From: a virus
Strand: one strand, 5' to 3'
Length of the DNA: 64,000 nt
IMG/VR virus record: IMGVR_UViG_3300031565_014867
Span: 1-64,000 of that record
Within the stretch, counting starts at the first letter, position 1, and every line of letters begins with the position of its first letter. The translations under genes were made by a program, and so were the position numbers. Below are positions 6,288-33,504 of the stretch, one piece after another. The notes beneath the pieces were generated by a model. It was not told where the DNA came from. It saw nothing but the letters and a program-made list of their open reading frames with translations, and did no database searches.

Positions 6288-8614
6288 ACCGGGGTGCCTT
6301 CAAATTCGAGTGCCGTGCTGATGTTGTGCGGGCCGTTGCGGATGATCGGTTCGTCGGGCGAAACGATCACGCCGGCCCAATGCCGCTTTTCCCAGTCCCG
6401 CAGGCTGACTTCCTTGCCGAGCGTTGCAGTAATGAACGAGAGCAGCGATTGGGCTTCGTCCTCCTCCAGGCCGACGAACTCCAAGGTCAACTGTTGCACC
6501 TTTGGCCAGATTGGATCGGCAAAGACGACCAGCGTGCCGCCGCGGGTCTCGCGGTTGATTCGCTGGAAGCGGAGCCGGTCCTTGTTGTCCAATTCCGGGC
6601 CCCGGAGTGTGACGGTCATCGTGGGTACATCGACCGGCCAGTAGAGTTGGACGCCCTCGACACGCTCCAACGTCGGAACGGTGGTTGAAGGTGGGGCCGG
6701 TGCGTTGGGATCGTCCGTCGAGCCAACAAACGGCGTGTACGCTCGGTTTACGCAACCCTCGACGAGCACGAGGTTGACCGCTTGGTGCAGGCTGAGCGTC
6801 GTGCTGGCTGAGACGAACCGCTCGATTGTGCGCGATGCCTGCTGGTCCAGCGCGAGCGTACTGGTTGCCACCTTGCTCGCCGTGGCCGAGGCAGTATGCC
6901 TAAAGGTGAGTTGGCTGACGGCGTCGCCGGTCGGCGTCGGGTCGGTCCACTGCGTGAGCGCTAGGGCGCTCATGGCCGTGGCGCTGATCCCGTCGGCACG
7001 AACGTGAACGACCCCCGCTCTCTGGGCGAACGACAGGATGTTCCCGGTCGGCTCCGGATCGACGTAGATGTAGGCGCCGGCTGAAGCGAAGATGCCGTGC
7101 TCGACTTCGATCTCGTTAAACGTGAGCCGGTCGAGCGTGATTTCGGTAAAAAAGATCGGCGTAGTGGCCGCGACGTGGGTGACCTTGTTGCCGTGGGCTC
7201 CGCTGTCCAGGTCCAGACTGTTTGCGCCATCGAGGTGGATCGTAGAATTGCGCCCTTCGGCCCAATCCCACAGCCAAAGCTGGCTTTCGGCCGAAACCTC
7301 GATTGTGGGCACGGCGAGGCCGGTGGCCGAAGCGGCGAATGTGAGAGCATTGGACGCCGAGACCGCCTTGCTCAAGCTGCGTTCCGCTTGGCTGCCCAGC
7401 GACAGCGGACTGCTCGCCCCAATGGCGTGGACCAGTGTAACTGAAGCCTGGTCGGTTACGGTCAGCGTATTCGAGGCCGAGCATTCAATTGTGGAAGTGG
7501 CAAGACCGGTCGTCGAATCCGAGAATGCGAGGGTGCTGGACGCCGACACTACGGCGCTCAGATTGCGCACGGCTTGGTGGTTGAGGGAAAGCGGACTATT
7601 CGCTTCGCCAAGAATCACTGCCGCCCTCGTAGCCTGGACACCCAAACCCAGAGTGTTCTCCGCGGAGACTACGAAGGAGCCGACGCCGCTGGCTGCGTCT
7701 TCCAGCGCAAACGTACTGGTGGCGGAGGCATGGCGGACAACGGAACCGGTTGCTTGTTGAGAGAGTGTGAGATTGGAGTGGGCATTCCGGATGACCTCGC
7801 CGATTGCCTGACCCAGAAGCGACAGTGCGTCCGTGGCCTGAACGACAAAGGCCACGTTCGCTTCAGCCGCGCTGGCTAACCCCAACGCATTCGAGGCGGA
7901 GCAGACGGCCACCTTGCTCGCATCAGCCGCATCATCCAACGCAAGGACACTGTCGGCAGTGACTTGGCGGACGACTGTTTGGGCGGCCTGCTGTGAAAGG
8001 GTGAGAACCGACTGGGCGAGCTTGACCACGTCGCCGGCGGCCTGGCCCGCGAGCGATAGGGAGCCGTACGCATCGACGAAGTAGACAGTGCTGACCCCGG
8101 CGCCATCGGAAAGGCTCAGCGTGTTGGAGGCAGAGCGACCGATCGTTCGATGGACGGCGGCAGTGTCCGAAAGCGACAGTGTGTTCGCAGTCGACCGGCC
8201 GGCGACTGTGTTGTATGACGCCGATTGCGAAACCCCGAGGTCATTCCCCGCGCTTACGAACGTGCCTTCAGGCAAAGCGGCGAGGACCTCTACGCCCTGC
8301 CGGGTGACGATCAGTCCGGGCGCATTCTGCCCCAAAACCTCGATCCCTTGCCGGGTCACTTCCAAGCCGGGCGGCGGGGGCGGGTCGGAGGCCATGACCT
8401 CGACTGCCTGGCGAGTGACGCGCAGCTTTCGCTCGGGTGCCGGGTCGGACCCCATCACCTCGACCGCCTGGCGGGTGACGCGCAGCACGCGCTCGGGCGA
8501 CGGGTCGGACGCCACCACCTCGGCAACCTGGCAAGTGGTCCGCAGCAGTCGCTCAGCCGGCGGATCGGAGGCCACGACTTCGGCGACTTGCCGGGTTACG
8601 CGGAGATCGGCCAT
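6284..8614 (-). CDS. Repeat-rich tail fibre-like protein
   Basis: 776 residues in three parts. Residues 1-118 are six imperfect 18-20-residue units built on VTRQAVEVMGSDP. Residues about 120-640 are many 30-40-residue units of the type SASNTLSLSDQA. The last about 130 residues form a compact domain (WPVDVPTMTVTLRGPEL to ISTALEFEG) similar in layout to the next gene product. Repetition of short alternating hydrophobic strands suggests an extended beta structure, as in phage fibres. ATGA overlap with 5901-6287 and the tail-region position support a virion role. The host-binding idea is inference. Confidence 0.8.
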   Translation of the reverse strand: MADLRVTRQVAEVVASDPPAERLLRTTCQVAEVVASDPSPERVLRVTRQAVEVMGSDPAPERKLRVTRQAVEVMASDPPPPPGLEVTRQGIEVLGQNAPGLIVTRQGVEVLAALPEGTFVSAGNDLGVSQSASYNTVAGRSTANTLSLSDTAAVHRTIGRSASNTLSLSDGAGVSTVYFVDAYGSLSLAGQAAGDVVKLAQSVLTLSQQAAQTVVRQVTADSVLALDDAADASKVAVCSASNALGLASAAEANVAFVVQATDALSLLGQAIGEVIRNAHSNLTLSQQATGSVVRHASATSTFALEDAASGVGSFVVSAENTLGLGVQATRAAVILGEANSPLSLNHQAVRNLSAVVSASSTLAFSDSTTGLATSTIECSASNTLTVTDQASVTLVHAIGASSPLSLGSQAERSLSKAVSASNALTFAASATGLAVPTIEVSAESQLWLWDWAEGRNSTIHLDGANSLDLDSGAHGNKVTHVAATTPIFFTEITLDRLTFNEIEVEHGIFASAGAYIYVDPEPTGNILSFAQRAGVVHVRADGISATAMSALALTQWTDPTPTGDAVSQLTFRHTASATASKVATSTLALDQQASRTIERFVSASTTLSLHQAVNLVLVEGCVNRAYTPFVGSTDDPNAPAPPSTTVPTLERVEGVQLYWPVDVPTMTVTLRGPELDNKDRLRFQRINRETRGGTLVVFADPIWPKVQQLTLEFVGLEEDEAQSLLSFITATLGKEVSLRDWEKRHWAGVIVSPDEPIIRNGPHNISTALEFEGTPV
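8261..8614 (-). repeat. Six tandem ~57-bp coding repeats (VTRQ..EV units)
   Basis: The start of the 6284-8614 gene is built of six units about 54-66 nt long, encoding variants of LRVTRQAVEVMASDP. The first four end in SDP plus PPAER, PSPER, PAPER or PPPPP; the last two are shorter (QNAPG, LPEG). The DNA units are visibly similar, so recent expansion by slippage or recombination is likely. Confidence 0.8.
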
Positions 8615-9743: not shown

Positions 9744-10823
9744 TTACGTGCCCACCTTGATTCCGAACTGTGCGCCGTTGACGCCCGAGACGGTCCATGC
9801 GGAGGATGTGTCCGGGTCCATTTCCAAGACCCGTTGGACCGACGTGTAGGAGTCGTCGGCAATGTTCGTCGCGTCCCCGTCACTTGCCGTGGTGCCCGAT
9901 TTGACGGTCTGGTAGATGTCTAGGTCGCCGGGAAAGGCCGTCATCCGCGGCTCCGTCTTGAGCACAACGCCCAAGATGTCTTCGTCCGTAATCGTCGAAA
10001 GGTCGGTGTACCCATAAAGGTCCTCATCGCCCTCGGTGCCACTCTCGACGAAGGAAGTGTCGTTGTCGGTCGGGTTGTCGTCGACCATCGCGTAGTTGTC
10101 GGTGCCGGAGGCGGGCGTCCAATCGCTGCTGTCGCCATCGGCGTCGGGGAAGATGCCCTCGACCATGATTTGCCCCAAGAAGTTGTTGTTGACCGTGCCG
10201 TCCGTGTCGCAGATGTAGATGTCGTCGAGGTATTGATAATACTCGTCACAACGGAACCGGACGAATCGCGTGTCCGCCCCGGTGCGCGTGTCGACATTCG
10301 AGTCGCTCAACACAGCGACGCCGTCGACGCGGACTTCGTAGGAACCGGCCGTGTCATGGCATACGACCTTCACCTCGAAATAGTGCCACCGGTCCTTCTT
10401 GTAGACCGCGTTGACCGTCGTTGCGAGGTGCGTGTTTCCGGCCCCATACACGGCGACCTTCCCGTCGTCGAGCAGTTTCAGAGCGAAGTTCCAATAGCTC
10501 GTCGACGGGCTGGTATGGGCCAGGACAACGAGGGAGTTGTTGTCGGGAAAGGACGAATCGAACTTGACCGCCAGACCGATGATCCAAGTGTCATCAGTTG
10601 GCACGTCATCGGCAGCGACGGCGTAGTAGAAATACTGGTAGTTGCTGTTGAGCGCAACGGCAGAACGCCCGCCGTTGCGACCTGTCGCCAACTGCATCGA
10701 CGAAGCATAGTTGCTCAAGCCGATGCCGTGGAAGTTGCTGTATCTGCGATTTAGACCATCGTAGACCGTGTCGCCGATCGTCGTTCCGAATGTTTCAAAC
10801 CCCTCGGCCAGTCGCAGAGCCAT
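9744..10823 (-). CDS. Lectin-like tail protein, paralogue 2
   Basis: 359 residues starting MALRLAEGFETFGTTIG, preceded by a GGAGA Shine-Dalgarno site about 6-8 nt upstream. It is very similar to paralogue 3 along its whole length: WHYFEVKVVCHDTAGSYEVR, DDIYICDTDGTVNNNFLG, SDWTPASGTDNYAMVDD, ending QFGIKVGT. The fold is predicted to be a beta sandwich of the concanavalin/LamG type. The close match points to a fairly recent duplication. Only 19 nt separate it from paralogue 3. Confidence 0.86.
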   Translation of the reverse strand: MALRLAEGFETFGTTIGDTVYDGLNRRYSNFHGIGLSNYASSMQLATGRNGGRSAVALNSNYQYFYYAVAADDVPTDDTWIIGLAVKFDSSFPDNNSLVVLAHTSPSTSYWNFALKLLDDGKVAVYGAGNTHLATTVNAVYKKDRWHYFEVKVVCHDTAGSYEVRVDGVAVLSDSNVDTRTGADTRFVRFRCDEYYQYLDDIYICDTDGTVNNNFLGQIMVEGIFPDADGDSSDWTPASGTDNYAMVDDNPTDNDTSFVESGTEGDEDLYGYTDLSTITDEDILGVVLKTEPRMTAFPGDLDIYQTVKSGTTASDGDATNIADDSYTSVQRVLEMDPDTSSAWTVSGVNGAQFGIKVGT

Positions 10824-10836
10824 CACACCATCTCCC

Positions 10837-11874
10837 TTAGCTGGTCTTTTTGAAGCCAAACTCGGCGGCGTTGACGCCCGCGGGTTCCCAGGCGGCGGAC
10901 GTGTCCGGGTCTTGCTCGAACACAGTGGCAACCGTCCTGAAGTTCGTCTCGTCGGTCACAGTCTCCGCCGCGGACTCAGACTCCGTGGTGCCGGATCGGA
11001 CGACGTGCGCGAGGTCCTGGTTGGCGACGGTGAGCTTGCGTGCGTCCGTGTTCACCTGCACGCCGCGAATCTGGTCGGGGCTGCTGGTGAGGTTTTCGTA
11101 GCCGTAGGTGTCCTTGGCGTCTTGCGTGGTTGTCGACACGTTGTCCGTGCCGTCCAGGTCGCTCGGGTTCTCGTCCACCAGCGCGTAATTGTCGGTGCCG
11201 CTGCTTGGTGTCCAGTCGGACGAATTGCCATCGGAGGTGGGTAGCAGACCTTCGACAAACACGGGGCCGATGAAATCGTTGTTGACCGCCCCGTCGCCGT
11301 CACAGATATAGATGTCGTCGATGAACTGGCCGGTGGTATCTGCGGCGAACTCAATCAGACTCGCCGGCGTGCCTGTGTCGACCCCGCTGCCGCTGGCCGA
11401 CTCGATGCCATCGACTCGCAGTTCCCAGCTTCCGGTAACCGCATCGATCACGACCTTCAGTTCGATGTAGTGCCACGCATCATCCCAGAAGACCGTCTCC
11501 TCGCCGCCTGAATCGCCACTGGTGCCGAGCGTTGTCGACCCCTCTTTGACGAAGATTCTCCCGGAGGCGTCGGTCTCCAGATCCAGCGAGTTGAAAATCC
11601 GTAAGATGTCATCTCCGTTGCTTGTGTTCCCCTTCATCGCGAAGCCGACGATCCAGGTCGTCTTTGTATCGGGGAACTGCTTGCGAAACCCGAGACCCGA
11701 GTAGCCTTGGCATTCCAGGCTCTTGCCCAAGAAACGGCCTTCCGCCAGATACCCTGCAGAAGAGAACCACGACGTATCCCACTTCGCGGCAATACCGGCC
11801 TCCACGCCGGTCTGGGTGGCCGCGCCGGTGCCGGTTCCGTAGAGTTCAAAACCTTCGATCCAGCGTAGTGCCAT
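10837..11874 (-). CDS. Lectin-like tail protein, paralogue 1
   Basis: 345 residues starting MALRWIEGFELYGTGTG at 11874; a 10-residue longer start is possible but does not match the paralogues. It is the most divergent of the three tandem copies. It keeps the N-terminal block, WHYIELKVVIDAVTGSWELR, DDIYICDGDGAVNNDFIG and SDWTPSSGTDNYALVDE, but ends EFGFKKTS. Predicted concanavalin/LamG-like fold. It lies downstream of a strong 14-bp hairpin, which might reduce or separate expression from the upstream gene. Confidence 0.85.
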   Translation of the reverse strand: MALRWIEGFELYGTGTGAATQTGVEAGIAAKWDTSWFSSAGYLAEGRFLGKSLECQGYSGLGFRKQFPDTKTTWIVGFAMKGNTSNGDDILRIFNSLDLETDASGRIFVKEGSTTLGTSGDSGGEETVFWDDAWHYIELKVVIDAVTGSWELRVDGIESASGSGVDTGTPASLIEFAADTTGQFIDDIYICDGDGAVNNDFIGPVFVEGLLPTSDGNSSDWTPSSGTDNYALVDENPSDLDGTDNVSTTTQDAKDTYGYENLTSSPDQIRGVQVNTDARKLTVANQDLAHVVRSGTTESESAAETVTDETNFRTVATVFEQDPDTSAAWEPAGVNAAEFGFKKTS

Positions 11875-11902
11875 GTGGCGTCTCCTCTGCGCATTGGGTA
11901 AC

Positions 11903-11935
11903 ACCGATCGGGCGCGCTTCCCGCGCCCGATCGGT
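11903..11935 (-). terminator. Perfect 14-bp GC-rich intergenic hairpin
   Basis: Arms 11903-11916 (ACCGATCGGGCGCG) and 11922-11935 are perfectly complementary around a 5-nt loop. The hairpin lies between two late tail genes. No T-run follows on either strand, so it is not a classical intrinsic terminator; it may attenuate transcription or protect mRNA ends. Confidence 0.55.
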
Positions 11936-12599: not shown

Positions 12600-15500
12600 C
12601 TACAGGGTGGACGTGCCGCGCCGCAGTTCGCGCCGGACGCCGGCGGCGATGGTTCGCGCGGTTTGACGGGCGGACTGACCGCCTTGAACGCTGACGTGGA
12701 TGTCGCCAATGTTCGTGACCGGCCCGCCCTCTTGGCGGTAGACCGGCCGAACACCGGCGTTGATCGCTACAAGCTCGGAGAAGAACCTGCGGGCCGACCG
12801 GGCGTTGACCACGAACTCGCCAGGAGAGAGCATGGCCGGAATGGTATCGGTGCCCTGCGGCAGAAAACCGCCCCCAGCCAGATGGCGGGCGACTTGGACC
12901 AGGCCGCCGGCCGACAGTTTTTGGACCAACCCGCCCTTGGCCGAGGTCACGGTCGCAGCGGTCGGGATGCTCGGCATATTGATCTGACCGCTTGCCCGCG
13001 CCATTCGCTCGAACGCATCGGCTGCGGCCAAGCTCGATTCGGCCAGGGATCGGGCCGGGCTGGTCGCGTTGCTCAGGTTGAATTGAACCTGGCTGGTGGA
13101 GGTGGCGGCCCGTTTGCTTTCCTGCTCGACCTGGTAAAGGAACCGCTCGACCTGGCGGAGTTGCTCTTCCCCGCCGCCCTCGGCGAACGGGTTGCCTTTG
13201 AGCTTTTCTCGAACTTCCAGGCTCTCTTGGAGGATCTGCAAGTTCCGCCCCAGAGCGTCATACTCGGCGCCGACGATGAAGCCCTTGTTCTCTTCGTAGA
13301 ACGCCCGGGCACGGTTGAACAAGTCGATGAACTTTTCGCGGGTCAGGTCCGAGCTGCTGTTGAGCCGGACCATCTCCTCGGTGAGCATCGTCAAGCCCTG
13401 TTGGGTATCGCTCAGCTCCTTGGTCCGCTCCGGGCTGTAAAGCCACCCGAGGAATTCTGTTTCGGTGAACCCGACCGGATCGAGCGGGTCGCTGACATTA
13501 CCGCGAATCCGCACGAAGTTTTGCCGCAATTGTTGCTCAGCAACTCTCGCTTCGGCCCGCTGCCGTAGCAGTTCGTTGCGCCGGTCGAATTGCTTCTGAA
13601 CCGCCTCGCCGATCCGGGCGACGTCGCCCGCGAACTTCTCGCCGCTGAGGGCTTCCAGATCGGGAAGGAACCGAAGCTTCACTTCGAGGTCACGGGTCGA
13701 TTCCTCGATCTGGGCGTTCAGACCGGCCAGCGCCTCGGGGGCGGCCCGAAGGGTTTTGATCTGGGTCGAGTCGAGTTGCCGGGACAGGTTGCGGCTGAGG
13801 TTGGTCAGATCGATGATCTGCCCAACGTCGAGGCTCTCGCTGGTAAGGGCGATCCGCCGGAACTCGCGGAACGCCTCCTGGTAGCTCGCAAGCCGCTTCG
13901 CCCGCTCGGCCGCCGGGAGTTCCTTGTCGTCCTCGAATAGACTGGCCGACTCTTGCAGCCGCACGGAGAGAACCTTGAGGCGGTCCAGGTTGCGATTCTC
14001 ACGGTCTGCCGCTCGCTGCGCCTCTTGGGCTCGGCGCTGTTGGCTCTGCCGCAGTTGCTCCTCGGCGACAAGCTGCTGCTGTAAGACACCTCGGACGGCT
14101 TCGGCTGCTTTGGCTTCGAGTTGCCGGTTCTTCGTCCGATCGGCGATGGCCTCGGCCTGTTTGGCGAAGGCCGCCGCGCGGTCGAACTGGGCCAGGGCAT
14201 CGCTCGTCTCTTCCGTGGTGGTGGCGCGGGCCAACAGCGCCGCAGCATACTCGGCGACCTTCTCTGCACGCTGGGTGTACCGCTCGAACTGCCGCGTGTC
14301 GCCCAGTCGCTTGTTGTTCCGCTCGAAGGCGTCGTCGGAGAGCCGATCCCGGACTGAGATGCTCCGCCGTTGCGACTCGGTGACGGCCGCGATCGCGTCC
14401 TCTTCCATCTGCTGGTAGCGGCGAACCCGGTCTTCCTGCACGCGGATGATCGCGTCGGCCGTGCTCTTCGTATCTTGGACAAGTCGTTCGTTCGCCTCGC
14501 GAGCGGCATCGACGTTCTGGAAGTGGAGCTTCCGCTGCTCGGCGATCTGCTGCTGGACAATCTGCTGGATCTTCTTCGACGCCTGCTCGGCCGCTTTGAC
14601 CCGCTCCTCCTCGTCGGCGCGGAACTTCCGCATGACTTCCCGCGACGCCTCGGTGCGGATCTTGTCGTACTGCCGACGCTGCTCGACGATCCAATTGCCG
14701 ATCCCCTCGCCGAGCGACTTGGCGATGCCGGCCGCCGCCAGCCCGGCCGCAAAGCCACCGATGGCCTTGTTGGCAAGCGACGCATCCTTCGCCAAGGTTC
14801 GGGCCTTCAGGCTCGCATAGGCCGCCTTCACAGCAAATGCAGTCAAGGCCAGCGCCCCCGCGCCCAACACGGGCACTAGGGCCTTACCGACGCCAATCAG
14901 CGTGTCCACGCCGCCGATCACACCGAAGAAATCGCGGGCCGTCTTCACCAGGGCCGTGCCCAGTTCGACGGTGAAGAAGTTCTTGAGCTTGTTCAGGTCT
15001 TTCGTGACTTGCTCAACGTCCGTCTCCATGATGGCCTGGAACTGGTCGTTCAGTTCCGTGAGGTCCGTCTTCTCCAGTTCCGCCAGGCTCCGCTCGAACG
15101 CATCGGCCCCGGTCCCGGTCAGTCGAAGCACTGCGTTGAGGCCCCGCACCCGCGGGAAGAGCTTGGCGATGGACGTGGTGGAGCCGTCGGTGGTCGAAAT
15201 CACCGCCTTCATCGCACCGACGAAGCCGAGTGCCGACACAGCTTGCTCGCCCGACTCGTACCCTAACTGACGCAGGGCCTTCTTCATCGCCGTGGTCGGT
15301 TTGACCAGCGCGGTCATCGCGCCACGAATCTGCGTGGCGGCCTCGGCCGTCTTTACGCCGCCGATCGTCACGGCTGCATACGATGCCTGCAATTCGTCGA
15401 GACTGATGCCAAGCTGCGCGGCCATCGGCGCGGTCCGGCCGAAACTGACGGCCAATTCGCTCGCTCGGGTACGGCCCAGCTCGATCGTCTTGAAGAACTT

Positions 15501-16475
15501 CGCTGCGACCGTTTCGGATTCCGACGCATCCTTGCCGAAGGCGTTGAGCGTACCGGTGAGCAAGTTGACCGAATCCTCGGTGCTCGCTACCGCAACCTTC
15601 GAGAACTTCAGCGAGGTGGTCAGCACGTCGACCTGGTTGGCCGTGCCCTGAATCTGGTTCGAGATGACCTGATACAGGCCCTCGCTCACATCGCCGAGCG
15701 GTTGGTTGAATTCGTCCGACAGGCCCCGCACCGTGGCGGCCAACTGATTGAGGTTCTTGACCGGCGAGATGGTGCGAATCTCGGCGATCTGCCGCTGGAA
15801 GTCGATCGAGTCGTTGTAAGCGTCGTTGATGGCGTTGCGGACCATGCTCAGCGCACGGACGATCATTTGCGTCGCCACGACGCGGGCCAGCGTCTCCCAA
15901 CTGATCGTCAGGGCCTTGGTGGAGCGGGTGCCCGTCTCGCCCAGCTTGCCGTAGGACTTCTCGACCCGCTGGAGCCCATCAGCGATCTTGTTCTCCGCGC
16001 CGGTGAAGCTCTGGCCGAGGTTGTTTTGGATGCGGCGGACGTCATCGAGTGACTTGCCCGACCGCTTGGCGTATTCGGCAACCTTGGTGGCCGCACTCTC
16101 GAAGGCCCGCTTGTGTTGGGTACGGGCGACAGCCGGTATCTCGCCGAACTTGGCCTTGACGTTTTCCAGATGGTTCAGGACCGAATCGGCTTCCGAGCGG
16201 GTCGACGCTGCTGTCCCCGAAGTGCCTGGAGTCGATCCTGTTGCTGCCCCGCGTGCCCGTGCAAGTCGGTCGAGACTGGCGAATGCCCGATCCGCCTCAC
16301 TCTTGATCCGCTTCAGCGCCCCGACCGTCTTGCCGGCCCGCTTGTTGAACAGATCGAGACCTTTGCCCGTCCCACCGACTGTTTTCTCGAACTTCGCCAA
16401 CACGCCGTCCAACTCGCGCAGCGTGTTGAGCGCTTGCGAGGCATCGAAGCCGAGTTTGGACGTGAGTTCTTCCAT
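12600..16475 (-). CDS. Tail tape measure protein
   Basis: 1291 residues, the longest late gene. In long-tailed phages this protein sets tail length and is ejected with DNA. It shows the TP901-type architecture: N-terminal coiled coil (ALNTLRELDGVLAKFEKTV), a central hydrophobic segment (near GALALTAFAVKAAYASL and IGGFAAGLAAAGIA), and a long charged helical region (KAEQASKKIQQIVQQQIAEQ and onward). It follows the tail chaperone pair by one gene, as expected. The C-terminus (INAGVRPVYRQEGG, NIGDIHVSVQGG) is typical of tape measure ends. The stop codon is TAG. Confidence 0.95.
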   Translation of the reverse strand: MEELTSKLGFDASQALNTLRELDGVLAKFEKTVGGTGKGLDLFNKRAGKTVGALKRIKSEADRAFASLDRLARARGAATGSTPGTSGTAASTRSEADSVLNHLENVKAKFGEIPAVARTQHKRAFESAATKVAEYAKRSGKSLDDVRRIQNNLGQSFTGAENKIADGLQRVEKSYGKLGETGTRSTKALTISWETLARVVATQMIVRALSMVRNAINDAYNDSIDFQRQIAEIRTISPVKNLNQLAATVRGLSDEFNQPLGDVSEGLYQVISNQIQGTANQVDVLTTSLKFSKVAVASTEDSVNLLTGTLNAFGKDASESETVAAKFFKTIELGRTRASELAVSFGRTAPMAAQLGISLDELQASYAAVTIGGVKTAEAATQIRGAMTALVKPTTAMKKALRQLGYESGEQAVSALGFVGAMKAVISTTDGSTTSIAKLFPRVRGLNAVLRLTGTGADAFERSLAELEKTDLTELNDQFQAIMETDVEQVTKDLNKLKNFFTVELGTALVKTARDFFGVIGGVDTLIGVGKALVPVLGAGALALTAFAVKAAYASLKARTLAKDASLANKAIGGFAAGLAAAGIAKSLGEGIGNWIVEQRRQYDKIRTEASREVMRKFRADEEERVKAAEQASKKIQQIVQQQIAEQRKLHFQNVDAAREANERLVQDTKSTADAIIRVQEDRVRRYQQMEEDAIAAVTESQRRSISVRDRLSDDAFERNNKRLGDTRQFERYTQRAEKVAEYAAALLARATTTEETSDALAQFDRAAAFAKQAEAIADRTKNRQLEAKAAEAVRGVLQQQLVAEEQLRQSQQRRAQEAQRAADRENRNLDRLKVLSVRLQESASLFEDDKELPAAERAKRLASYQEAFREFRRIALTSESLDVGQIIDLTNLSRNLSRQLDSTQIKTLRAAPEALAGLNAQIEESTRDLEVKLRFLPDLEALSGEKFAGDVARIGEAVQKQFDRRNELLRQRAEARVAEQQLRQNFVRIRGNVSDPLDPVGFTETEFLGWLYSPERTKELSDTQQGLTMLTEEMVRLNSSSDLTREKFIDLFNRARAFYEENKGFIVGAEYDALGRNLQILQESLEVREKLKGNPFAEGGGEEQLRQVERFLYQVEQESKRAATSTSQVQFNLSNATSPARSLAESSLAAADAFERMARASGQINMPSIPTAATVTSAKGGLVQKLSAGGLVQVARHLAGGGFLPQGTDTIPAMLSPGEFVVNARSARRFFSELVAINAGVRPVYRQEGGPVTNIGDIHVSVQGGQSARQTARTIAAGVRRELRRGTSTL

Positions 16476-18614: not shown

Positions 18615-19460
18615 CTAGAGGTAACAAGTTCCGTGTGGCCAATTGCCAGACTTAGCGTGTTGCTGAAGACGCCATCTAAGTGTGCTGTAATTCACACCCA
18701 AGGCTTCAGCAGCTTCTTTGACACAGCCATACTCGGCTCCATCCACAAGGACACGTTTTGCGCGGTGGGACTTTGTGCCCTTGCGTGATTCACTCATGCG
18801 ACGGCGGGCTTGAGGCGAAGCCTTCCGCCCCTTTGAAGCCAAACCGATTTGTCGGCCATGTTCCTTTCGATCAAAAGGCTCATAAGTAGCTTTGCCGCTC
18901 TCGACAAGTCGCCGCACTGTTTCACGGGACACTCCGAGACCTTCTGCTGCATCCTTCATGCAACCATATCGAACACCGTTCAGAACGGCGGATTTGGCAC
19001 ACGGATGGTCCGCGCCCCGCCCGTTCATCTCGCGAAGGCGAGTAAGCACTTCCGGGCTGCATTCTCTTCCTTTGCAGGCTTCACTGATCTTTCGGCGGGT
19101 TTCCTCAGAATGCGGGCCAAGCTCGCTTCCGCTGTGAGCTTCACTCATCCTCCGTTTGGTTCCATCCGACGCTTGCCACCCAAGCGATCCATCACCACCC
19201 AGCGTTAGGTTGTACCCAGATGGTGCGAAGGTGTCTAAAGCGAGGACTGTACGGTACTCCATCATCTTGGCCCATCGATCATCTCCCTCGTACCAAGGTT
19301 CAAATAGCAGGCTGTTGATTCCGTACTTCTGGATCGCTTGATAAACAAGTTGTGAACCATGCCCTGAGATGTGCTCTCGACAACGTCTCTCAAAGTCGAC
19401 AGTAGCACCGACATACTGCTCACCAGTGATGAGGTTCGTTATGACGTAGACCGTCGTCAT
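18615..19460 (-). CDS. GIY-YIG homing endonuclease
   Basis: 281 residues. The N-terminus VYVITNLITGEQYVGAT is a GIY-YIG variant, followed by R-x-x-x-H (RRCREHISGHG) and a catalytic-type Glu in EYRTVLALDT. The C-terminal half has NUMOD3-like repeats (SEAHSGSELGPHSEETRRK, SEACKGRE, SESRKGTK) and helix-turn-helix NUMOD1-like units (DAAEGLGVSRETVRRLV, EAAEALGVNYSTLRWRL). It sits between two tail genes, and its ATG overlaps the upstream stop by ATGA. Such endonucleases cut alleles lacking them; it is probably a mobile passenger. Confidence 0.92.
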   Translation of the reverse strand: MTTVYVITNLITGEQYVGATVDFERRCREHISGHGSQLVYQAIQKYGINSLLFEPWYEGDDRWAKMMEYRTVLALDTFAPSGYNLTLGGDGSLGWQASDGTKRRMSEAHSGSELGPHSEETRRKISEACKGRECSPEVLTRLREMNGRGADHPCAKSAVLNGVRYGCMKDAAEGLGVSRETVRRLVESGKATYEPFDRKEHGRQIGLASKGRKASPQARRRMSESRKGTKSHRAKRVLVDGAEYGCVKEAAEALGVNYSTLRWRLQQHAKSGNWPHGTCYL

Positions 19461-19957
19461 GTGGTCACCATGAGGTGCATTCTGTACCGGGCATCGACGG
19501 CGCTCTGGCGGAGCCGATCGTCGCGGCTGATCTGTCCGAAGTGAATCACGCGGATCGCATCCCGCTTGCCGGAGCGGAGCGTGAGGCAACCGAGTAGCGA
19601 CTGGTCGTCATCCGGCCCTTCTCCCCACTTCCGCACGGGGATCGGCCCGCCGGCCGCTTGAAGCAACACGCCGGCTTGCTGCACGATGTCGTAGGCGTTC
19701 TTGGTCTGGCCGCCCATCATGCTCGTCAGCAGCAGGTTCACGTCCACGTCGAGCCGAAAATAGCCCCGGCTGAGTTCCGTTACGGCCGGGCCGTTGATGC
19801 GGAATTCGACGTGATCGTTCGCCCGCATCTTCTCGGCCTCGCGTTCGTCGAGCCCTTCAATCAGGATGGGCAGTTCGATCCCGTCGGCCGCCTGCTTGAA
19901 GTAGTCGGCGGCCGAGGCGAATATCCATCGCGGCCAGTGCGGGTTGGGGATGCTCAT
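19457..19957 (-). CDS. Tail completion/terminator-like protein
   Basis: 166 residues starting MSIPNPHWPRWIFASAADYF. Located after the neck-type protein and before the tail tube, where tail terminators lie. It contains a beta-rich centre (VEFRINGPAVTELSRGYFRLDVDVN) and ends MHLMVTT. ATGA overlaps occur at both ends, so it is translationally coupled. The family was not recognised; the role is inferred from gene order. Confidence 0.75.
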   Translation of the reverse strand: MSIPNPHWPRWIFASAADYFKQAADGIELPILIEGLDEREAEKMRANDHVEFRINGPAVTELSRGYFRLDVDVNLLLTSMMGGQTKNAYDIVQQAGVLLQAAGGPIPVRKWGEGPDDDQSLLGCLTLRSGKRDAIRVIHFGQISRDDRLRQSAVDARYRMHLMVTT

Positions 19958-20816: not shown

Positions 20817-22229
20817 TCAGCCCTGGAGCACCACGGCCAGGTCCGGGTCGAGGACCGCGACGCCGGCCAGGATGTCCATGTTGACGACCGTGCCCTGCTT
20901 GATGCTGTTGTATTGCATCGTGATACGCATGGCGATGTCGTTGTACGCTGCCACGGCGGCCATCACGCCCATCGACTGGTTGGGCAACGCCAGCGGCCGG
21001 GTGACCAGGGCCAGGGCGTCACGGTGCAACGCGAGGTTCATCGCGCCAGCCGGGCCGGGGAAGGCTAGGTCGTTGTCGGCCAGGGCGGTTTCGAGCGGGC
21101 GGTCGAGCCAGACGACCCGATCGGAGCCCGATGCCTCCGACTCGATCACCGTGTAGGTGTGGCGGCTGCCACCGGTGCCGAAGGAGACGAGCTGACCGAC
21201 CTGGAGCGACTGGGTGAAGCCGTCGACCGTGATGCCCTTGGTGTAGTCGGCCGGGTAGTCGCCCTTGACGCTCTGGGCCTTGTACACGGTGATGGCTGCG
21301 CCGGCCTCGGTGGCGAACTTGTTCGCCTCGTGGAGCGTTACGGCCGTCGTGTCGCCAGCGGCGGTCGTGGCCGCGGTCACGTAGGTAGGCTGGTCGTTGC
21401 CTTCGACCACGGCGTACTCACCCGCCTGCGCCTCATAGCCGGTGATGGCCACTGCCTGCGAGCCGGTCGCACCGATGCTCGCGGCATTGGTCACGGTTCC
21501 GGTCGCCACGTCGGACGTGCCTTCGGCGATGTCGTTGACGTTCTGGTCCATCCAGGTGTCGAAGCCGAGGATGCGGCCCAGCCGGGCGTTTTCCAGGGCC
21601 GTTCCGCCATCGCCCCGCTGATCGGCCGCGATGAACAACTCGTTCTTGAGCAGGGCCGTCTCGCTGGCCGAGCCGAGCACCAGGTTCCGCGCCGTCACCG
21701 GGGCCTTGTTGTCGTTGAGCACCTTGCGGGCTTCGAGCAGGTAGTCCTTCGAGTTGTCCTCGTCGAGGTTCAACAACCGCCCGACTCGCTTGGCCGGACC
21801 GCTGAGAAACCGGTGGACCTGACCGAGCACCGCGCGATCGACGCCGCGAGCGATGACTTGCATGGCCGGCAGCAAGTAGATCGCGACCAATTCCTGGAAC
21901 GACTTGCTCGCCTCGCCATCCTTGATGACGAACGAGTTGTAGATGTGCTGATCGAGCGGGACCTGCACGTTGGTCGAACGGGCGTCCTGGGTCTCGACGT
22001 CGTCGTCATCCGTCTTGCGGCGAATCTTGAAGCTGGCCGGCTGCCGGGTGTTGACCACGTCGCCGAACTCACGGACCTCGTCCTCGAAGTCACGGTGGAC
22101 CATCGCGGCGGCCACCATGTTCTCTTCGAGGATGGCCAGGCCCTCTTGCGCCCATCGCTCGGGAATGTAGGCGTCGTTGTCGTTGGCGTAGCAGGTGGGC
22201 TCCGCCGAGGAAAGGTAGAGAGGATTCAT
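20817..22229 (-). CDS. Major capsid protein, P22 coat-like
   Basis: 470 residues from ATG 22229 (MNPLYLSSAEPTCYANDND). The stretch YIPERWAQEGLAILEENM, MVHRDFEDEVREFGDVVNT and RQPASFKIRRKTDDDDV is typical of P22 gp5-like coat proteins with the HK97 fold, and QELVAIYLLPAMQVIARGVDR matches the spine-helix region. The C-terminus contains MNLALHRDALALVTRPLALP, a segment common in this family. It follows the scaffold gene. The first 20 residues resemble the scaffold's N-terminus. Confidence 0.92.
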   Translation of the reverse strand: MNPLYLSSAEPTCYANDNDAYIPERWAQEGLAILEENMVAAAMVHRDFEDEVREFGDVVNTRQPASFKIRRKTDDDDVETQDARSTNVQVPLDQHIYNSFVIKDGEASKSFQELVAIYLLPAMQVIARGVDRAVLGQVHRFLSGPAKRVGRLLNLDEDNSKDYLLEARKVLNDNKAPVTARNLVLGSASETALLKNELFIAADQRGDGGTALENARLGRILGFDTWMDQNVNDIAEGTSDVATGTVTNAASIGATGSQAVAITGYEAQAGEYAVVEGNDQPTYVTAATTAAGDTTAVTLHEANKFATEAGAAITVYKAQSVKGDYPADYTKGITVDGFTQSLQVGQLVSFGTGGSRHTYTVIESEASGSDRVVWLDRPLETALADNDLAFPGPAGAMNLALHRDALALVTRPLALPNQSMGVMAAVAAYNDIAMRITMQYNSIKQGTVVNMDILAGVAVLDPDLAVVLQG

Positions 22230-22306
22230 CGTGAGGAGTTCTCCGTTGTGGGGTGTTGCGGCGAGTGCCGCGAAAGGTGGGACAAACGAACCCCTGGAAG
22301 AAAAGG

Positions 22307-23167
22307 TCAACGGCCGCGCTTCGGTTTCAATCCGAGAAGCTCAGGGTTCTTCTCGCGGATTTCGCGGTACTGCGTGGGAGACAGCTTCCGCACGTCGATC
22401 TGGCCGTTCGCTCCCGGTGCAAGGCCACCGGTAGCCGAATTTCCGCCGATGCCACTGACGACACCGGATTTGAAGAGGTTGCCGTACAGGTCGGGCAATT
22501 CCTGCATCCGCTTGACCGCGTTCTCGGGCGTGCGCTGGGTCATCACCGACTCGCCCGTTTCGAGGTCGACGTCGGCGAAGTCGATCATCGGCTCGAACTC
22601 GCCGAGCCCGCGCCCCTTCTCGTCGGTCTTCTCGACCATCTTGGTCATGGGTCGCAATAGCGCGATGACCTGCGACGGGTTATACGCCTCGTGCGAGACG
22701 GCGGCGTCCTGGAGCGCCCGGGAGATCGTCGACTCCATGTAGCGGCGCTCCCAAACCTCGTACTGCTTCTCGGCCTCCGCCAGTCGCTCGCTGTATTCCT
22801 CTTCGAGCTTCTTGCGATCGTGCGCCGCCTGCTGCTCCTTGGTGCGATACTGGGCGCGGAGGTTTTCGAGCGACTCTTCCAGCTTGTTGCGTTCGTCCTT
22901 GCTGAGGCTCTCGTTTTCCAGGAGTTGCTGGTACGACTGCTCCAGCGATTCGTATTTCTCCTGGTGCTTGCGACGGTCACTCGCCAGGAACTTGTTAACC
23001 TCTTCCTGGGTGAACGTCCGATCGCCGCCTTGATCGCCCTGGTCGCCTTGACCGCCATCGCCTCCCTTTTGGTCGGCATTATCGGTTTGGCCACCTTCGC
23101 CACCGCCGTCGCCTTCGTTGTCGTAGCAGGTCGCCAGTGGGTCGGAGAGGTACAGGTCGCACAACAT
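22307..23167 (-). CDS. Scaffolding protein
   Basis: 286 residues from ATG 23167, chosen for the GGAAG site 7 nt upstream; a start six codons earlier overlaps the connector stop. It has an acidic glycine-rich N-terminus (GGDGGQGDQGDQGG), then a long coiled coil (residues about 55-150: ESLEQSYQQLLENESLSKDE and onward), then a short C-terminal coat-binding-type region ending PELLGLKPKRGR. Phage scaffold proteins guide coat assembly and are lost from the mature head. It lies directly before the coat gene. Its first residues, MLCDLYLSDPLATCYDN, resemble those of the coat. Confidence 0.9.
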   Translation of the reverse strand: MLCDLYLSDPLATCYDNEGDGGGEGGQTDNADQKGGDGGQGDQGDQGGDRTFTQEEVNKFLASDRRKHQEKYESLEQSYQQLLENESLSKDERNKLEESLENLRAQYRTKEQQAAHDRKKLEEEYSERLAEAEKQYEVWERRYMESTISRALQDAAVSHEAYNPSQVIALLRPMTKMVEKTDEKGRGLGEFEPMIDFADVDLETGESVMTQRTPENAVKRMQELPDLYGNLFKSGVVSGIGGNSATGGLAPGANGQIDVRKLSPTQYREIREKNPELLGLKPKRGR

Positions 23168-23184
23168 GGTCACACTTCCTTTCA

Positions 23185-24639
23185 TCAGGAAACCCTACTC
23201 AGTCGAATGGCGTCGTCGTCGCGAAGGAACGGTCGCAGGTATCGCCACGCCAGAGCGTTGGGCACACCGTTGACAATGTGTTCGATCGGGACATGGGCGC
23301 GGGAGTAGGTTGTCCGCACCGACGCATAGCCCTGGGAAACGATTCCCAGGTTCTCCAATTCCAGTTCGGGGTCCTTGCCGTCGAGCAAGGAATGGGCGAT
23401 CTCGTAACAGGCGATCCGTATCGCCTCGGGAACCTCCGTGTCGTCACCGCGCGGGAACTCCAGCACTTGCTCGGCCTCGGCCGCGCGGATCGTCTGATCG
23501 CTTGCCCCCGAGCCGAGTGCATGGACCGAGTGTTTTCGGCCCTTGAAGTTCAGCGTGTCGATCACGAGTGTCGCCGCACGCAACGCCCTGGGACGATCGA
23601 TCGGCCTGGCTTGCGACCATGCGTGCTCGTGCAACCGCATGGCGAAGTAGTCCGCCGCTTCCTGGACCGAACCGTAGGTCTCTTGCGAGATTCCTTTGGG
23701 CTTTTGAGGGTCCACGGGCTGCGGAGGGCTCGCCGGACCGATCTTCAACACCTCGGTGGCATCGAATGGAATCCCGTAGATCATGCCGCTCGGCGCGAGG
23801 ACAGCACCTTGCCATTTGTAGGTCCCGGCCAGATTCCCGAAGGTCGACACGGCGTCGATCACCGGATCGATCTTCAGCACCCCCGTGGCGTTGTAAGGAA
23901 CTGCGTAAATGCAGCCGTTGGAGGCTACAACGCCGGCGTTCCACTTGTGGGCACCGGGAAGGTCACCGAAGGTCGACGTGGTGTCGGAGTCCGGATTGAT
24001 CTTGAGCACCTGGGCAGCGTCTCTCGGAATCCCGTAGATGATCCCGTTCGGCGCCAGGACGCCGAAGGCCCATTTGTTTGTCTCGGTCCCCAGGCTGCCA
24101 AAGGTGGTCGCTGTGTCAGCGGCGGGATCGATCTTCAGAATCGCGGCGTGGTTCTTCGGAATCCCGTAGATACAGCCGTTGGGCGCCAGAACGCCGTCAA
24201 ACCACTTGTTTGTCCCGGTAAAGTTCCCGAAAGTGGTCGCCGTGTCGGTGGCAGGATCGATCTTCAGAACTTCGGTGCTGCTGAACGGAATCCCGTAAAT
24301 GCAACCGTTCGGTGCCAGAACGCCGCCGAGCCATTTGTTTGTTCCGGGCAGGCTGCCGAATGTGGATATGGTGTCGGTGGCAGGGTCAATCTTCAGGACC
24401 TTGGTGCTGCCGTACGGAATCCCGTAGATACAGCCATTGGGTGCCACAACGCCTGCAGTCCATTTGTGTGTTCCGATCAGTCCACCAAACAGGGACGCGG
24501 TATCGGTGGCCGGATCGATCTTCAACACCTGTGTGGCGTCGTACGGAATCCCGTAGATGCAGTCATTGGAAGCCAGCACGCCGCCGACCCACTTGTAGGT
24601 ACCCACGAAGTTCCCGAACGTGGAGAGGGTGTCAGTCAT
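23185..24639 (-). CDS. Seven-bladed propeller fused to a head-tail connector domain
   Basis: 484 residues. Residues 1-310 are seven repeats of about 43 residues, each with a core like KWLGGVLAPNGCIYGIP followed by VLKIDPATDT. Seven such units suggest a closed seven-bladed beta-propeller. A Pro-rich linker (PPQPVDPQKPKG) leads to a C-terminal about 155-residue domain (TYGSVQEAADYFAMRLHEHAW and DGKDPELELENLGIVSQG) of the DnaT-like/head-tail adaptor kind. It lies after the portal, overlapping it by 8 nt, and before the scaffold. The connector role fits the position; the propeller would probably project from the neck. I do not know another example. Confidence 0.85.
   Translation of the reverse strand: MTDTLSTFGNFVGTYKWVGGVLASNDCIYGIPYDATQVLKIDPATDTASLFGGLIGTHKWTAGVVAPNGCIYGIPYGSTKVLKIDPATDTISTFGSLPGTNKWLGGVLAPNGCIYGIPFSSTEVLKIDPATDTATTFGNFTGTNKWFDGVLAPNGCIYGIPKNHAAILKIDPAADTATTFGSLGTETNKWAFGVLAPNGIIYGIPRDAAQVLKINPDSDTTSTFGDLPGAHKWNAGVVASNGCIYAVPYNATGVLKIDPVIDAVSTFGNLAGTYKWQGAVLAPSGMIYGIPFDATEVLKIGPASPPQPVDPQKPKGISQETYGSVQEAADYFAMRLHEHAWSQARPIDRPRALRAATLVIDTLNFKGRKHSVHALGSGASDQTIRAAEAEQVLEFPRGDDTEVPEAIRIACYEIAHSLLDGKDPELELENLGIVSQGYASVRTTYSRAHVPIEHIVNGVPNALAWRYLRPFLRDDDAIRLSRVS
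23710..24639 (-). repeat. Seven tandem ~130-bp repeats encoding propeller blades
   Basis: Seven DNA units of about 129-138 nt encode the blades. Invariant segments such as ATCTTCAGCACC/ATCTTCAGAAC and CGGAATCCCGTAGAT recur in each on the plus strand. The high DNA similarity suggests recent amplification. Confidence 0.85.
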
Positions 24640-26428
24640 CGACCGGCTCCTTCCCTACACCGCGGGTGCGCTCGGTCGTCGTGTCGCGGAACGTGGTGTC
24701 CCGTGACTGGGCCTTCTCGTCACTGCCGGCACCGGCCGGATCGGTCGAAAGGTCTTTCACACCCCGCGCGGCCGGATCACTGTCGTCATCGTCGCTGCTC
24801 TGCGCCGCAGCGATGCGGAGGATGCGGGCCGTGTGGTCTTCGCGGGCGGTCAGGTGCTCATCGTCGTCGAAGCCGAGGGCGACCGACGCCGTCTTCTCGC
24901 CGACCAGCCCGGCGTTCTTCGCGTCGATGATGATCTTGGGATCGCTGGTCGTGTAGTGCGAAGCGTCGATTTCGCGGTGGATGCGCTCGATCCGTTCGAC
25001 GCTGACCTTGCCGGCCAACAGCACGGTGACGATGTTCTTGGCGATCTCACGCTTGACCGTTCGGCCCGGCATCTTGTGCATCAACTTGGCTAGCTTGTCG
25101 GCCTCGTCGATCCGCTCCTCGTCCGACTTCAGACTGTAGCGGTCGGGGTACTTGACCGTGGCGACTTGCCTGCGGGCCTGCCGTCGCTCTTCGTAGGCGG
25201 CCCAGAACTCGGCGACCCGCCGCTCGGCGCTTTCGAGCACCAGGCCGATGTACGAGAGGCCCGCTTCGAGCCCCTGGTTGTCCATCTGCTTCGACTCGGC
25301 CGACGCGCGGGTCGCGAGGTTCACCACCGCCAGGTTGACCAGCTTGCGAACGTCCTCCTCCAACTTGCTCTGGAGCTTCAAACTGGCTTCGAGCGGCTCC
25401 GAGGGTGGTGCGATGAACGCCGGCGCATCGGCCTTGATGTCGTACGCCCGGCCTTGCGTCGAGCCGACCTTGATGTCCGTATCGGCCGCGCCCTGACCGC
25501 CTTGGGTGGCCGTGCCGTCGGCGCTGGCGGCGACCTTCAAGTGACCGCCGACTGCCCGCAGGTCGCGTTGTTCAATGTAGAAGGGGAAGTTGGCTTTCAG
25601 CGCGTGGTTCACGTCACTGGAACCGAGGTTCAACAAGGCGATCTGGTGTTGGCAAACGTCCTTGATAAGGCTGTCGCCAATGTCGAGCATCACGAAGGGG
25701 ATGCGATCCAGTTCGAGCAACACGGGGCCGGCCGGATTGCCGTCGCGGTCGATCGGGTTGCCGTCCGTGTCGTAGAGTTGCAGGGCTACCTTGCCGGTTT
25801 CGGGATCGATCCACAACAGCCGATACCGCTGGAAGGTCTGCGTCGGCAGTCCCGTCCGCTCGTCGAGATCGAGACAAGAATCCCGCAACAGTAGCGATTG
25901 GAACTCGGACGGTTCCTCGGGCTTCGAGCAGGCCCATGACAGAATGTCTTCGACCTGGTAACTGTAGAGGTAGGGCCGGCGTCCAGTGGCGTCGGCCAGC
26001 GTACTGACCCCATCGACAACCGGATGGTCCACGTACACGCCCACGCGGCCCATCACCAGCAGATCGGTCAACACCTTCATGCCCAGGAAGGAAGTCATCG
26101 TCGCGCCCCGGCGATCGACACCGCCTTCCAGCCCGGCCACGGCCTGTTGGTATGCACCGCTGCCACCGGTCCGCAACACGTCGCTCATGCGTTGATAGAT
26201 CGAGTTGCGAATGTCGTTCACAGCCGCCTTGGCAAACGCCGGGATCGGCGTGACCGCCTTGCGGCTGTTGAAGTCGCCTTGCTCTTCCCGTGTACTGAAC
26301 TGTTCCAGGAACCGATCCCGAAACTCGTCGCCGCCGCGATACGTCAATCGCCACTTCTCCCAGTCCGACATGCAGGACAGGTAGTTCGGGTGCCGACTGT
26401 CGATGATGTTGTGCGAAGACCGTTTCAT
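24632..26428 (-). CDS. Portal protein (DUF4055-like)
   Basis: 598 residues starting MKRSSHNIIDSRHPNYLSCM. Portals form the dodecameric DNA channel at one head vertex. The sequence has the expected mixed alpha/beta body: FAKAAVNDIRNSIYQRM, GMKVLTDLLVMGRVGVYVD, PYLYSYQVEDILSW and RIPFVMLDIGDSL. A long helical wing follows (LQSKLEEDVRKLVNLAVVN). The C-terminus is acidic and disordered (SSDDDDSDPAARG). It follows the large terminase by 10 nt. The DUF4055 assignment is by pattern only. Confidence 0.88.
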   Translation of the reverse strand: MKRSSHNIIDSRHPNYLSCMSDWEKWRLTYRGGDEFRDRFLEQFSTREEQGDFNSRKAVTPIPAFAKAAVNDIRNSIYQRMSDVLRTGGSGAYQQAVAGLEGGVDRRGATMTSFLGMKVLTDLLVMGRVGVYVDHPVVDGVSTLADATGRRPYLYSYQVEDILSWACSKPEEPSEFQSLLLRDSCLDLDERTGLPTQTFQRYRLLWIDPETGKVALQLYDTDGNPIDRDGNPAGPVLLELDRIPFVMLDIGDSLIKDVCQHQIALLNLGSSDVNHALKANFPFYIEQRDLRAVGGHLKVAASADGTATQGGQGAADTDIKVGSTQGRAYDIKADAPAFIAPPSEPLEASLKLQSKLEEDVRKLVNLAVVNLATRASAESKQMDNQGLEAGLSYIGLVLESAERRVAEFWAAYEERRQARRQVATVKYPDRYSLKSDEERIDEADKLAKLMHKMPGRTVKREIAKNIVTVLLAGKVSVERIERIHREIDASHYTTSDPKIIIDAKNAGLVGEKTASVALGFDDDEHLTAREDHTARILRIAAAQSSDDDDSDPAARGVKDLSTDPAGAGSDEKAQSRDTTFRDTTTERTRGVGKEPVDD

Positions 26429-32644: not shown

Positions 32645-33358
32645 CTACGAAGCCCGAAGCAGAACACGGCGGACGGCTGCCCGCGTGAACGGTTTCTTTG
32701 CCGTGGTGCGGTGGCCTTGCTCGTTGAGCCACTCGGCGATCTGTTGGAACGACTCGCCGGACACGCGCCGATCGCGGATCGCCGGCACGAGGAAGTCGTA
32801 GGCTTCTCGTGCTCGCTTGGATCGCTTCTCGGCGGCCACCTGTGTTGCCTTCGCTTGCCCTTTCGCCCGAAGGTGTTCCCGATCCTGCCAATGATCGCAA
32901 CGGGCTGAACCGAGCCGCACGCCACGGGCTTTGGCCGCTTTCAAGGCTGCCTTGGTCCGCGCACTGATGCGTTGGGCTTCGTCTTCGGCGACGGCTGCCA
33001 GGATGTGGATGGTCAGTCGATTGGCGTTTGGGTTGTCGCAGGCGACGAAGTCGACGCCGCTGTTCATCAGCCCGGCTGTAAAATGGACGTTGCGTGCCAG
33101 CCGATCCAACTTGGCAATAACGAGCGTGGCCCCCGAGAGCTTGGCGTGGGCGATCGCCTTGGCCAGTTCGGGTCGATCCGCGCGCTTGCCGGTTTCGACC
33201 TCGGTGTACTCGGCGAGAATCTCGCCATCGTTCCGACTGGCGAAACTCCATACTTCCGCTTGTTGGGCTTCCAGGCCGAGTCCGCTGCGGCCTTGCTTCC
33301 TGGTACTGACCCGGTAGTACGGGATGATCTCCTGTTTGCTCTTCTGTTGCGTTACCAT
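32645..33358 (-). CDS. Serine recombinase (resolvase/invertase size)
   Basis: 237 residues from ATG 33358, chosen for the GAGG site 5 nt upstream (a longer frame starts at TTG). The catalytic domain begins YYRVSTRKQGRSGLG with Ser18; ATLVIAKLDRLAR and VAEDEAQRISARTKAALK continue the family pattern. The C-terminal about 90 residues carry a DNA-binding helix-turn-helix-like part (FQQIAEWLNEQGHRTT). It is smaller than large serine integrases. It may integrate the phage, invert a segment or resolve multimers. It lies between the late promoter and the inserted cassette. Confidence 0.93.
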   Translation of the reverse strand: MVTQQKSKQEIIPYYRVSTRKQGRSGLGLEAQQAEVWSFASRNDGEILAEYTEVETGKRADRPELAKAIAHAKLSGATLVIAKLDRLARNVHFTAGLMNSGVDFVACDNPNANRLTIHILAAVAEDEAQRISARTKAALKAAKARGVRLGSARCDHWQDREHLRAKGQAKATQVAAEKRSKRAREAYDFLVPAIRDRRVSGESFQQIAEWLNEQGHRTTAKKPFTRAAVRRVLLRAS

Positions 33359-33504
33359 TTGTTCCTCGCGATGCGTCGTCAAGATGGTCCGTTTCCTTCA
33401 GCTTGCTCGATCCTCGGCTGAAGTCAAGTCGACATTATCAGGGCGAACGCTCGCTCAGAACTGCGCACCGCCTCACTGGTTCCCGAAGACGAGAGAATTC
33501 GGCG

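Follow-up and report, generated by a model that had tools for sequence, protein, structure and literature searches.

A phage gene that joins a seven-bladed propeller to an Ad1 head-tail adaptor, and a putative neck collar

One gene of the phage described here joins a seven-bladed propeller to a head-tail adaptor domain (Ad1). On sequence comparison, 21 positions of this propeller diversify in relatives where it is a free protein and are frozen in the clade where it is fused. We consider it on balance probable that every adaptor subunit, of which about 12 are expected, bears a propeller, which would give the neck a collar with a fixed putative binding face. The gene lies in a stretch of 64,000 nucleotides, positions 1 to 64,000 of virus record IMGVR_UViG_3300031565_014867, which we call the window. 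The fusion protein has one match only in the whole 81,782-bp (81.8-kb) record, so every adaptor subunit should carry the propeller.

The fusion gene and its predicted fold

The gene at 23185-24639 (minus strand) is a single frame of 484 residues, the ends of the open reading frame coinciding exactly with these positions. It encodes seven tandem units of 43 residues (one has 44), followed by a proline-rich linker and the adaptor domain (Table 1). The blades match DUF6923 (PF21959, E 1.2e-16, 61.7 bits against a curated cut-off of 27) and phrog_34644 (E 3.2e-19), which are the same blade family by sequence and are both listed as of unknown function; no paper naming DUF6923 was found in the open-licence literature. 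The C-terminal part matches DnaT_2 (PF20557, E 1.2e-6, 28.9 bits against a cut-off of 27) and phrog_477, 'head-tail adaptor Ad1' (E 9.8e-13). By Pfam and PHROGs the gene order is terminase, portal, fusion gene, scaffold and P22-like coat, which confirms the position between portal and scaffold given by the initial annotation. The ATG of the fusion gene lies within the end of the portal gene, the overlap with the portal stop being 8 bases, and an AAGGAG motif is seen upstream by eye.

Table 1. Features of the fusion gene and neighbouring structural genes in the window
Feature	Position	Strand	Evidence
Fusion gene: seven-bladed propeller, linker and Ad1 head-tail adaptor, 484 aa	23185..24639	-	ORF, repeats, domain matches, model
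N-terminal strand, residues 1-8, supplying the outer strand of blade 7 (velcro closure)	24616..24639	-	model strand 3-8; closure inferred from 7x4 strand count
Blade 1, residues 9-51	24487..24615	-	repeats and model
Blade 2, residues 52-94	24358..24486	-	repeats and model
Blade 3, residues 95-137	24229..24357	-	repeats and model
Blade 4, residues 138-180	24100..24228	-	repeats and model
Blade 5, residues 181-224, one residue longer	23968..24099	-	repeats and model
Blade 6, residues 225-267	23839..23967	-	repeats and model
Blade 7, residues 268-302, three strands; fourth from residues 3-8	23734..23838	-	repeats and model
Pro-rich linker, residues 303-320; low confidence in model; without conserved internal start codon	23680..23733	-	
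Ad1 / DnaT_2 adaptor domain, residues 321-484	23188..23679	-	Pfam, PHROGs, model
Portal protein, overlaps fusion gene by 8 bases	24632..26428	-	phrog_145
Scaffold protein	22307..23185	-	phrog_206, E 2.3e-6
Major capsid protein, P22 coat-like	20817..22310	-	PF11651 and phrog_283
Tape-measure protein	12600..16475	-	

The fusion is a true one, its frame being kept in 13 loci, in 8 of which the linker stretch is without any ATG, GTG, TTG or CTG codon. A GTG is present in the linker of the window's gene and in 5 of the 13 relatives. An internal translation start yielding free Ad1 is rejected, since the start codon in the linker is not conserved.

The fusion protein was modelled with AlphaFold2 from a 61-row alignment. 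The propeller is predicted as 28 consecutive strands, seven times four (pLDDT about 97), with the strand at residues 3-8 completing blade 7; the ring is closed in the model, which matches closed propellers over residues 1-310. The closest solved fold is virginiamycin B lyase, found as 2qc5 by Foldseek (E 3.9e-19) and as 2z2o by VIA (Z 32.8 over 299 residues, rmsd 2.7). This protein is an enzyme with 10-12% identity to the propeller, and the likeness is one of fold alone, which shows no function. Structure prediction had been proposed in the initial annotation as a check on whether the repeats close into a propeller, and they do; its description of a seven-bladed propeller fused to a connector is upheld by the open reading frame, the domain matches and the closed model.

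The Ad1 domain was modelled alone from a 78-row alignment. The model is helical, with pLDDT above 90 across most of the core. Foldseek gave nothing below E 0.001 for it. When it was re-aligned to 231 chains with VIA, seven reached Z 2 or more, and the top four rows are virion head-tail entries with weak scores: a Mu neck subunit (Z 7.1), the phiXacJX1 connector (5.5), the Milano neck (5.4) and an HFTV1 portal-entry chain (4.4). A P22 gp1-gp5-gp4 chain scores 2.0.

In the available passages on T7 gp12, the SU10 nozzle and the crAss001 muzzle, the propellers are also seven-bladed and lie at or near the adaptor, as in the window. The initial remark that propellers are unusual in phage necks holds, as far as found, for long-tailed phages, but it does not extend to these tail nozzles. 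By this likeness the propeller could be a nozzle that gates DNA, a reading that is scarcely credible and that we reject. The window phage has a tape-measure gene and therefore a long tail; the array of strands is uninterrupted, whereas the SU10 nozzle propeller is described as interrupted by inserted domains; and the free relatives of the propeller are separate proteins, one of them among probable tail-tip genes.

The blades were initially described as near-identical in DNA, and this was taken to mean that the domain had spread recently. Neither statement survived comparison. Any two blades of the fusion gene agree at 62-76% of their DNA and 50-74% of their protein positions, and their synonymous sites differ by 0.36-0.73 per site (mean 0.55). 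The window blades are 0.85 identical to same-numbered blades of other fusion phages and 0.61 identical to other blades, so the array is older than the clade; with the synonymous differences, this contrast rejects a recent amplification of blades. In free propellers the blades within one protein are 0.66 alike, against 0.55 for the window blade of the same position, so long-term exchange between blades is possible. The set used here and for the entropies below comprises 48 propellers, 8 of them fused and 40 free, the latter drawn from 60 listed free frames with seven blades.

Other genes of the window may be noted briefly. A GIY-YIG homing endonuclease frame (18615-19589, minus strand; phrog_314, E 3.9e-43) lies within the structural gene block, and L025:10301-10924 and L101:9606-10292 resemble it by eye. 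Tandem paralogues of phrog_2448, a family of unknown function, are found downstream of the tape measure (9744-10931 and 10837-11904, minus strand). The frame at 32645-33382 (minus strand) has a YRVSTRKQ motif and is presumably a serine recombinase, a hint that the phage is temperate. No terminase match in 50,697 phage records reaches 60% identity (about 23-26% among the matches listed), and Ad1 has one weak match in the comparison with known phages; these distant matches rule out naming the host through known phages.

Fused, split and free propellers

The scan for relatives covered viral contigs and gave 27 loci. The counts leave out L001, L029, L166 and repeat copies of the same contigs, and two named phage records (L030, L031) are left out of the tallies of blade number, linker starts and the KPLV segment. 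The fusion is present in 13 of the 27 loci (L002-L014), L002 being nearly identical to the window. In L015 and L016 the propeller and the adaptor are separate genes, 9 bp apart, and L017 has propellers only. The search for connectors without the propeller in sister phages, also suggested initially, found such adaptors in the other 11 loci, three of which (L024-L026) have another N-terminal part. There are 12 further contigs with both genes, in which the propeller is separate and upstream of the adaptor. A gene split in relatives had been counted in advance against the fusion. Such splits do occur, and with the fusion retained in 13 loci they make it a derived state without disproving it.

Two of the fusion loci have unusual repeats. 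L013 is cut at the contig end and has a blade rearrangement at that edge, and L014 has three blades only; both forms may be assembly errors of repeats. For L014 an assembly error is also suggested by its portal match, which starts late in an unusually long frame, and its capsid match, which spans two frames. Taken at face value, the three-bladed form would suit a propeller that is a functionless relic, passive cargo of the gene fusion. This is very improbable, as comparison of 11 fused genes in 55 pairs gives a dN/dS of 0.131 in the propeller (linker 0.086, Ad1 0.063), which is strong purifying selection.

Free propeller genes are common in phages. The propeller scan gave 143 loci, of which 80 were kept and 78 are distinct. 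By profile, exactly seven blades are present in 76 of 94 blade-bearing frames, many of the others being cut by contig ends. The adaptor profile matches 13 of 50 propeller records. Among 17 contigs with a free propeller and Ad1, the propeller is upstream of Ad1 in 14 and elsewhere in L061, L066 and L070; in those 14 it sits between portal and Ad1 wherever the portal is visible. Collagen-like and glycosyltransferase genes intervene between the free propeller and Ad1.

A glycosyltransferase-like gene in this interval is found at L043:7818-8978 (Pfam Glycos_transf_1), and, by likeness, at L057:4608-5768, L041:1500-2660 and L053:8949-10136. Collagen-like genes, which lie next to propeller genes or in the stretch from portal to adaptor, are found at L052:8702-9685 (Pfam Collagen) and, by eye, at L027:1982-2830 and L017:1338-2660. 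In the same portal-to-adaptor region L025:4833-5597 encodes a 254-residue protein of RRAQVSFAELEVPNGP-type repeats.

A Vibrio phage has a related propeller gene flanked by a long gene with a coil and a gene of the pectin-lyase fold, and this propeller gene is probably at the tail tip. Among 84,980 bacterial and archaeal genomes scanned there are nine propeller loci, of which five were inspected; some are prophage-like and others look like cellular genes. L168 (contig titled as an unclassified bacterium) and L169 (titled as Leptospirales) have propellers of the same family that are apparently outside prophages and by eye are possible lipoproteins.

Free propellers may end in the peptide LSR-x-F-NKF. 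It is nearly restricted to propeller proteins, which account for 50 of the 56 C-terminal matches among 7801 frames and for those on 5 of 5 contigs in a pattern scan, and the fused propeller is without the peptide. A role as a virion docking tag is weakened by similar endings in propellers on contigs titled Leptospirales and unclassified bacterium, so the peptide more likely belongs to the free propeller proper. For the 'KPLV' segment at the N-terminus of free propellers, a strict pattern matches 9 of 81 frames, fewer than inspection by eye had led us to expect, and we base no conclusion on it.

The propeller is one of several parts that are found at the N-terminus of Ad1. There are 80 Ad1 loci, of which 13 are the propeller fusions; of the 67 that remain, 18 show by eye a different N-terminal addition on one or more of their Ad1 genes. 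These additions are two kinds of beta-rich domain, RVTRQxxEVLG-type repeats and SLSLGQ-type repeats; none of four that were sampled scored above the Pfam cut-off. From this variety in sister phages the N-terminus of Ad1 appears to be a permissive site, used repeatedly for adding parts, with at least four kinds by eye besides the propeller.

The window itself encodes, at 6284-8614 (minus strand), a 776-residue protein that neither Pfam nor PHROGs matches and that opens with RVTRQxxEVxxSDP-type repeats; the N-terminal addition of Ad1 in L110, L121, L126, L148 and others is a repeat similar to these. Two Ad1 genes or frames are found in one phage in L041, L126, L131, L151 and L154-L157, the second often with N-terminal repeats. 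L154:4603-7215 holds portal and Ad1 in a single 871-residue frame, which is a possible portal-adaptor fusion or a sequencing error.

The variable face and its selection

Each blade has three positions that are hypervariable across the 48 propellers, which makes 21 per propeller, and the frame that carries them is invariant. Numbered from the blade tryptophan they are -2, two before the W of a conserved KW; +1, one after this W; and +16, one after a conserved IYGIP. Their mean entropies are 3.27, 3.49 and 3.07 bits, and the framework W, G, G and Y that flank them have 0.0-0.8 bits. At position +16 the residues F, Y, W, H and R make up 67%, against a background of 12%. Many sugar-binding sites are rich in aromatic residues, histidine and arginine.

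In the standard strand order of a propeller the top face is made up of the DA and BC loops, with the N- and C-terminus at the bottom. The top loops have 2.36 bits and the bottom loops 1.38, a difference in which seven of seven blades agree (Mann-Whitney p 1e-8, on positions that are not independent). As the termini are on the bottom face, the variable top face would point away from the adaptor.

Free propellers agree at 0.09-0.15 of the 21 positions throughout the range from 40% to over 80% identity in the rest of the sequence. Pairs that are 75-85% identical elsewhere share 0-7 of the 21, and the tandem propeller genes of L043 are 83% identical outside these positions and share 2 of 21 inside. 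Pairs that are 95-100% identical share 17-21 of 21 (in one truncated pair, 19 of 19), so replacement at these positions must take some time. No reverse transcriptase was found in the window's record, which is possibly incomplete, and RVT_1 is present in 1 of 29 records examined; retroelement-driven hypermutation is rejected on the latter count as a general cause of the variability.

At the 21 positions omega is 1.60 (0.79-2.33) in 13 free pairs, which are not independent, since several share near-identical members (about nine distinct comparisons), and two of which are paralogues within one phage. In 46 fused pairs, all from one clade, it is 0.19 (0.00-0.44). At the other positions omega is 0.24 in free and 0.14 in fused propellers. 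The pairs have a synonymous difference of 0.15-0.56 per site, the correction being rough at the upper end. The 21 positions were chosen by entropy on partly the same sequences, and the same three positions came out when, as a control, the choice was made on 29 rows outside all test pairs. The low dN/dS and the low omega place the fused propeller, its face included, under purifying selection.

The pattern in the free relatives, the tandem copies of L043 among them, is that of a receptor binder in an arms race, and a collar of this kind would set the host range and change with the host. For the fused propeller we disfavour such a role as improbable: its 21 positions evolve barely faster than the rest (omega 0.19 against 0.14), and residues at +16 are kept across the eight aligned fused proteins, for example the K and R of blades 4 and 5. 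The frozen face speaks against a role in changing host range, and a structural partner would fit it equally well.

For the family as a whole we tentatively suggest, at a confidence just short of even, that it is an antibody-like phage scaffold: an invariant seven-bladed propeller with 21 freely replaced positions on one face, which would serve as a free virion binder, often in tandem with different specificities. In the fusion clade it would have been welded to the adaptor and its specificity frozen, to give a permanent collar. If so, it is a scaffold provided by nature, constant in its frame and free to change at 21 positions, and its specificities could be read from phage genomes. Fused and free propellers are then one module exposed to two regimes of selection, and the contrast between them would directly test the role of a neck-borne domain.

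The proposed collar and known systems

In the available passages on R4C (PMC10276861), RcGTA (PMC7296036) and T7, twelve subunits are the rule for adaptors, and we infer by analogy a collar of about 12 subunits, its neck position and its orientation. About 12 subunits would ring the portal, giving about 12 propellers per virion, each on its 18-residue proline-rich linker. The RcGTA adaptor is given as 143 A (PMC7296036) and the SU10 propeller as about 50 A wide; by our estimate 12 propellers set edge-on would fit round a neck of RcGTA size, and this placement would turn the top face outward. The propeller would derive from a free, fast-diversifying phage surface protein encoded beside the adaptor gene, and the fusion would have fixed one specificity in the clade.

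A frozen face implies a constant ligand. The first choice for this predicted ligand is a common glycan of the host surface or the environment, because the family looks like a diversified binder with aromatic-rich positions and sister phages do without the propeller. The phage's own capsid is the second choice, because of the R4C and RcGTA precedents. That the propeller displays a binding surface at the neck, as the initial annotation supposed, is plausible and is our best reading, resting on the fold, the likeness to adaptors and the variable face.

The second choice of ligand corresponds to a structural clamp, in which the propeller, much as the RcGTA and R4C attachment domains do, binds the capsid round the portal vertex and links a 12-fold neck with a 5-fold capsid. 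The available parts of both papers (PMC10276861, PMC7296036) describe adaptors whose N-terminal beta domain lies outside the capsid and touches it, and the beta-sandwich of the Milano neck (PMC10491603) is a further precedent. The frozen face of the fused clade suits a constant partner, and since the record has yielded no second Ad1, each virion should contain the part. We nevertheless regard the clamp as rather unlikely, as Ad1 is without a propeller in 11 of the 27 loci, which have the same kind of portal, scaffold and capsid and so do not need it, and the wider propeller family is a diversifying binder.

The binding collar that we prefer can be set beside several known systems (further sources are PMC9509320, PMC10172136, PMC6702177 and PMC10743442). 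R4C (PMC10276861) and RcGTA g6 (PMC7296036) have a dodecameric adaptor with an extra outer beta-rich attachment domain, which in R4C is N-terminal as in the window fusion. In the passages available the R4C and RcGTA additions are small, Ig-like or five-stranded, and touch the capsid, and the authors of the R4C study deem adsorption unlikely for its N-terminal Ig-like domain, which is too close to the head (PMC10276861). The window addition differs in being a 300-residue seven-bladed propeller of a diversified family on a proline-rich linker.

Milano neck 1 (PMC10491603) has a helical core with an optional beta domain, and is among the weak matches to the Ad1 model given above; unlike the window fusion, its classes 1-3 have no propeller named in the part of the paper available. 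The podophage nozzle propellers (T7 gp12, SU10 nozzle, crAss001 muzzle) belong to a separate hexameric protein that lines the tail channel and is not fused to the adaptor, unlike the window propeller. No report of a propeller-adaptor combination was found in the open-licence literature. Phage propellers are already known, and so are adaptors that carry an extra domain at the N-terminus; what is new is that a phage propeller family has a variable face of 21 positions and that this face is frozen in the neck fusion.
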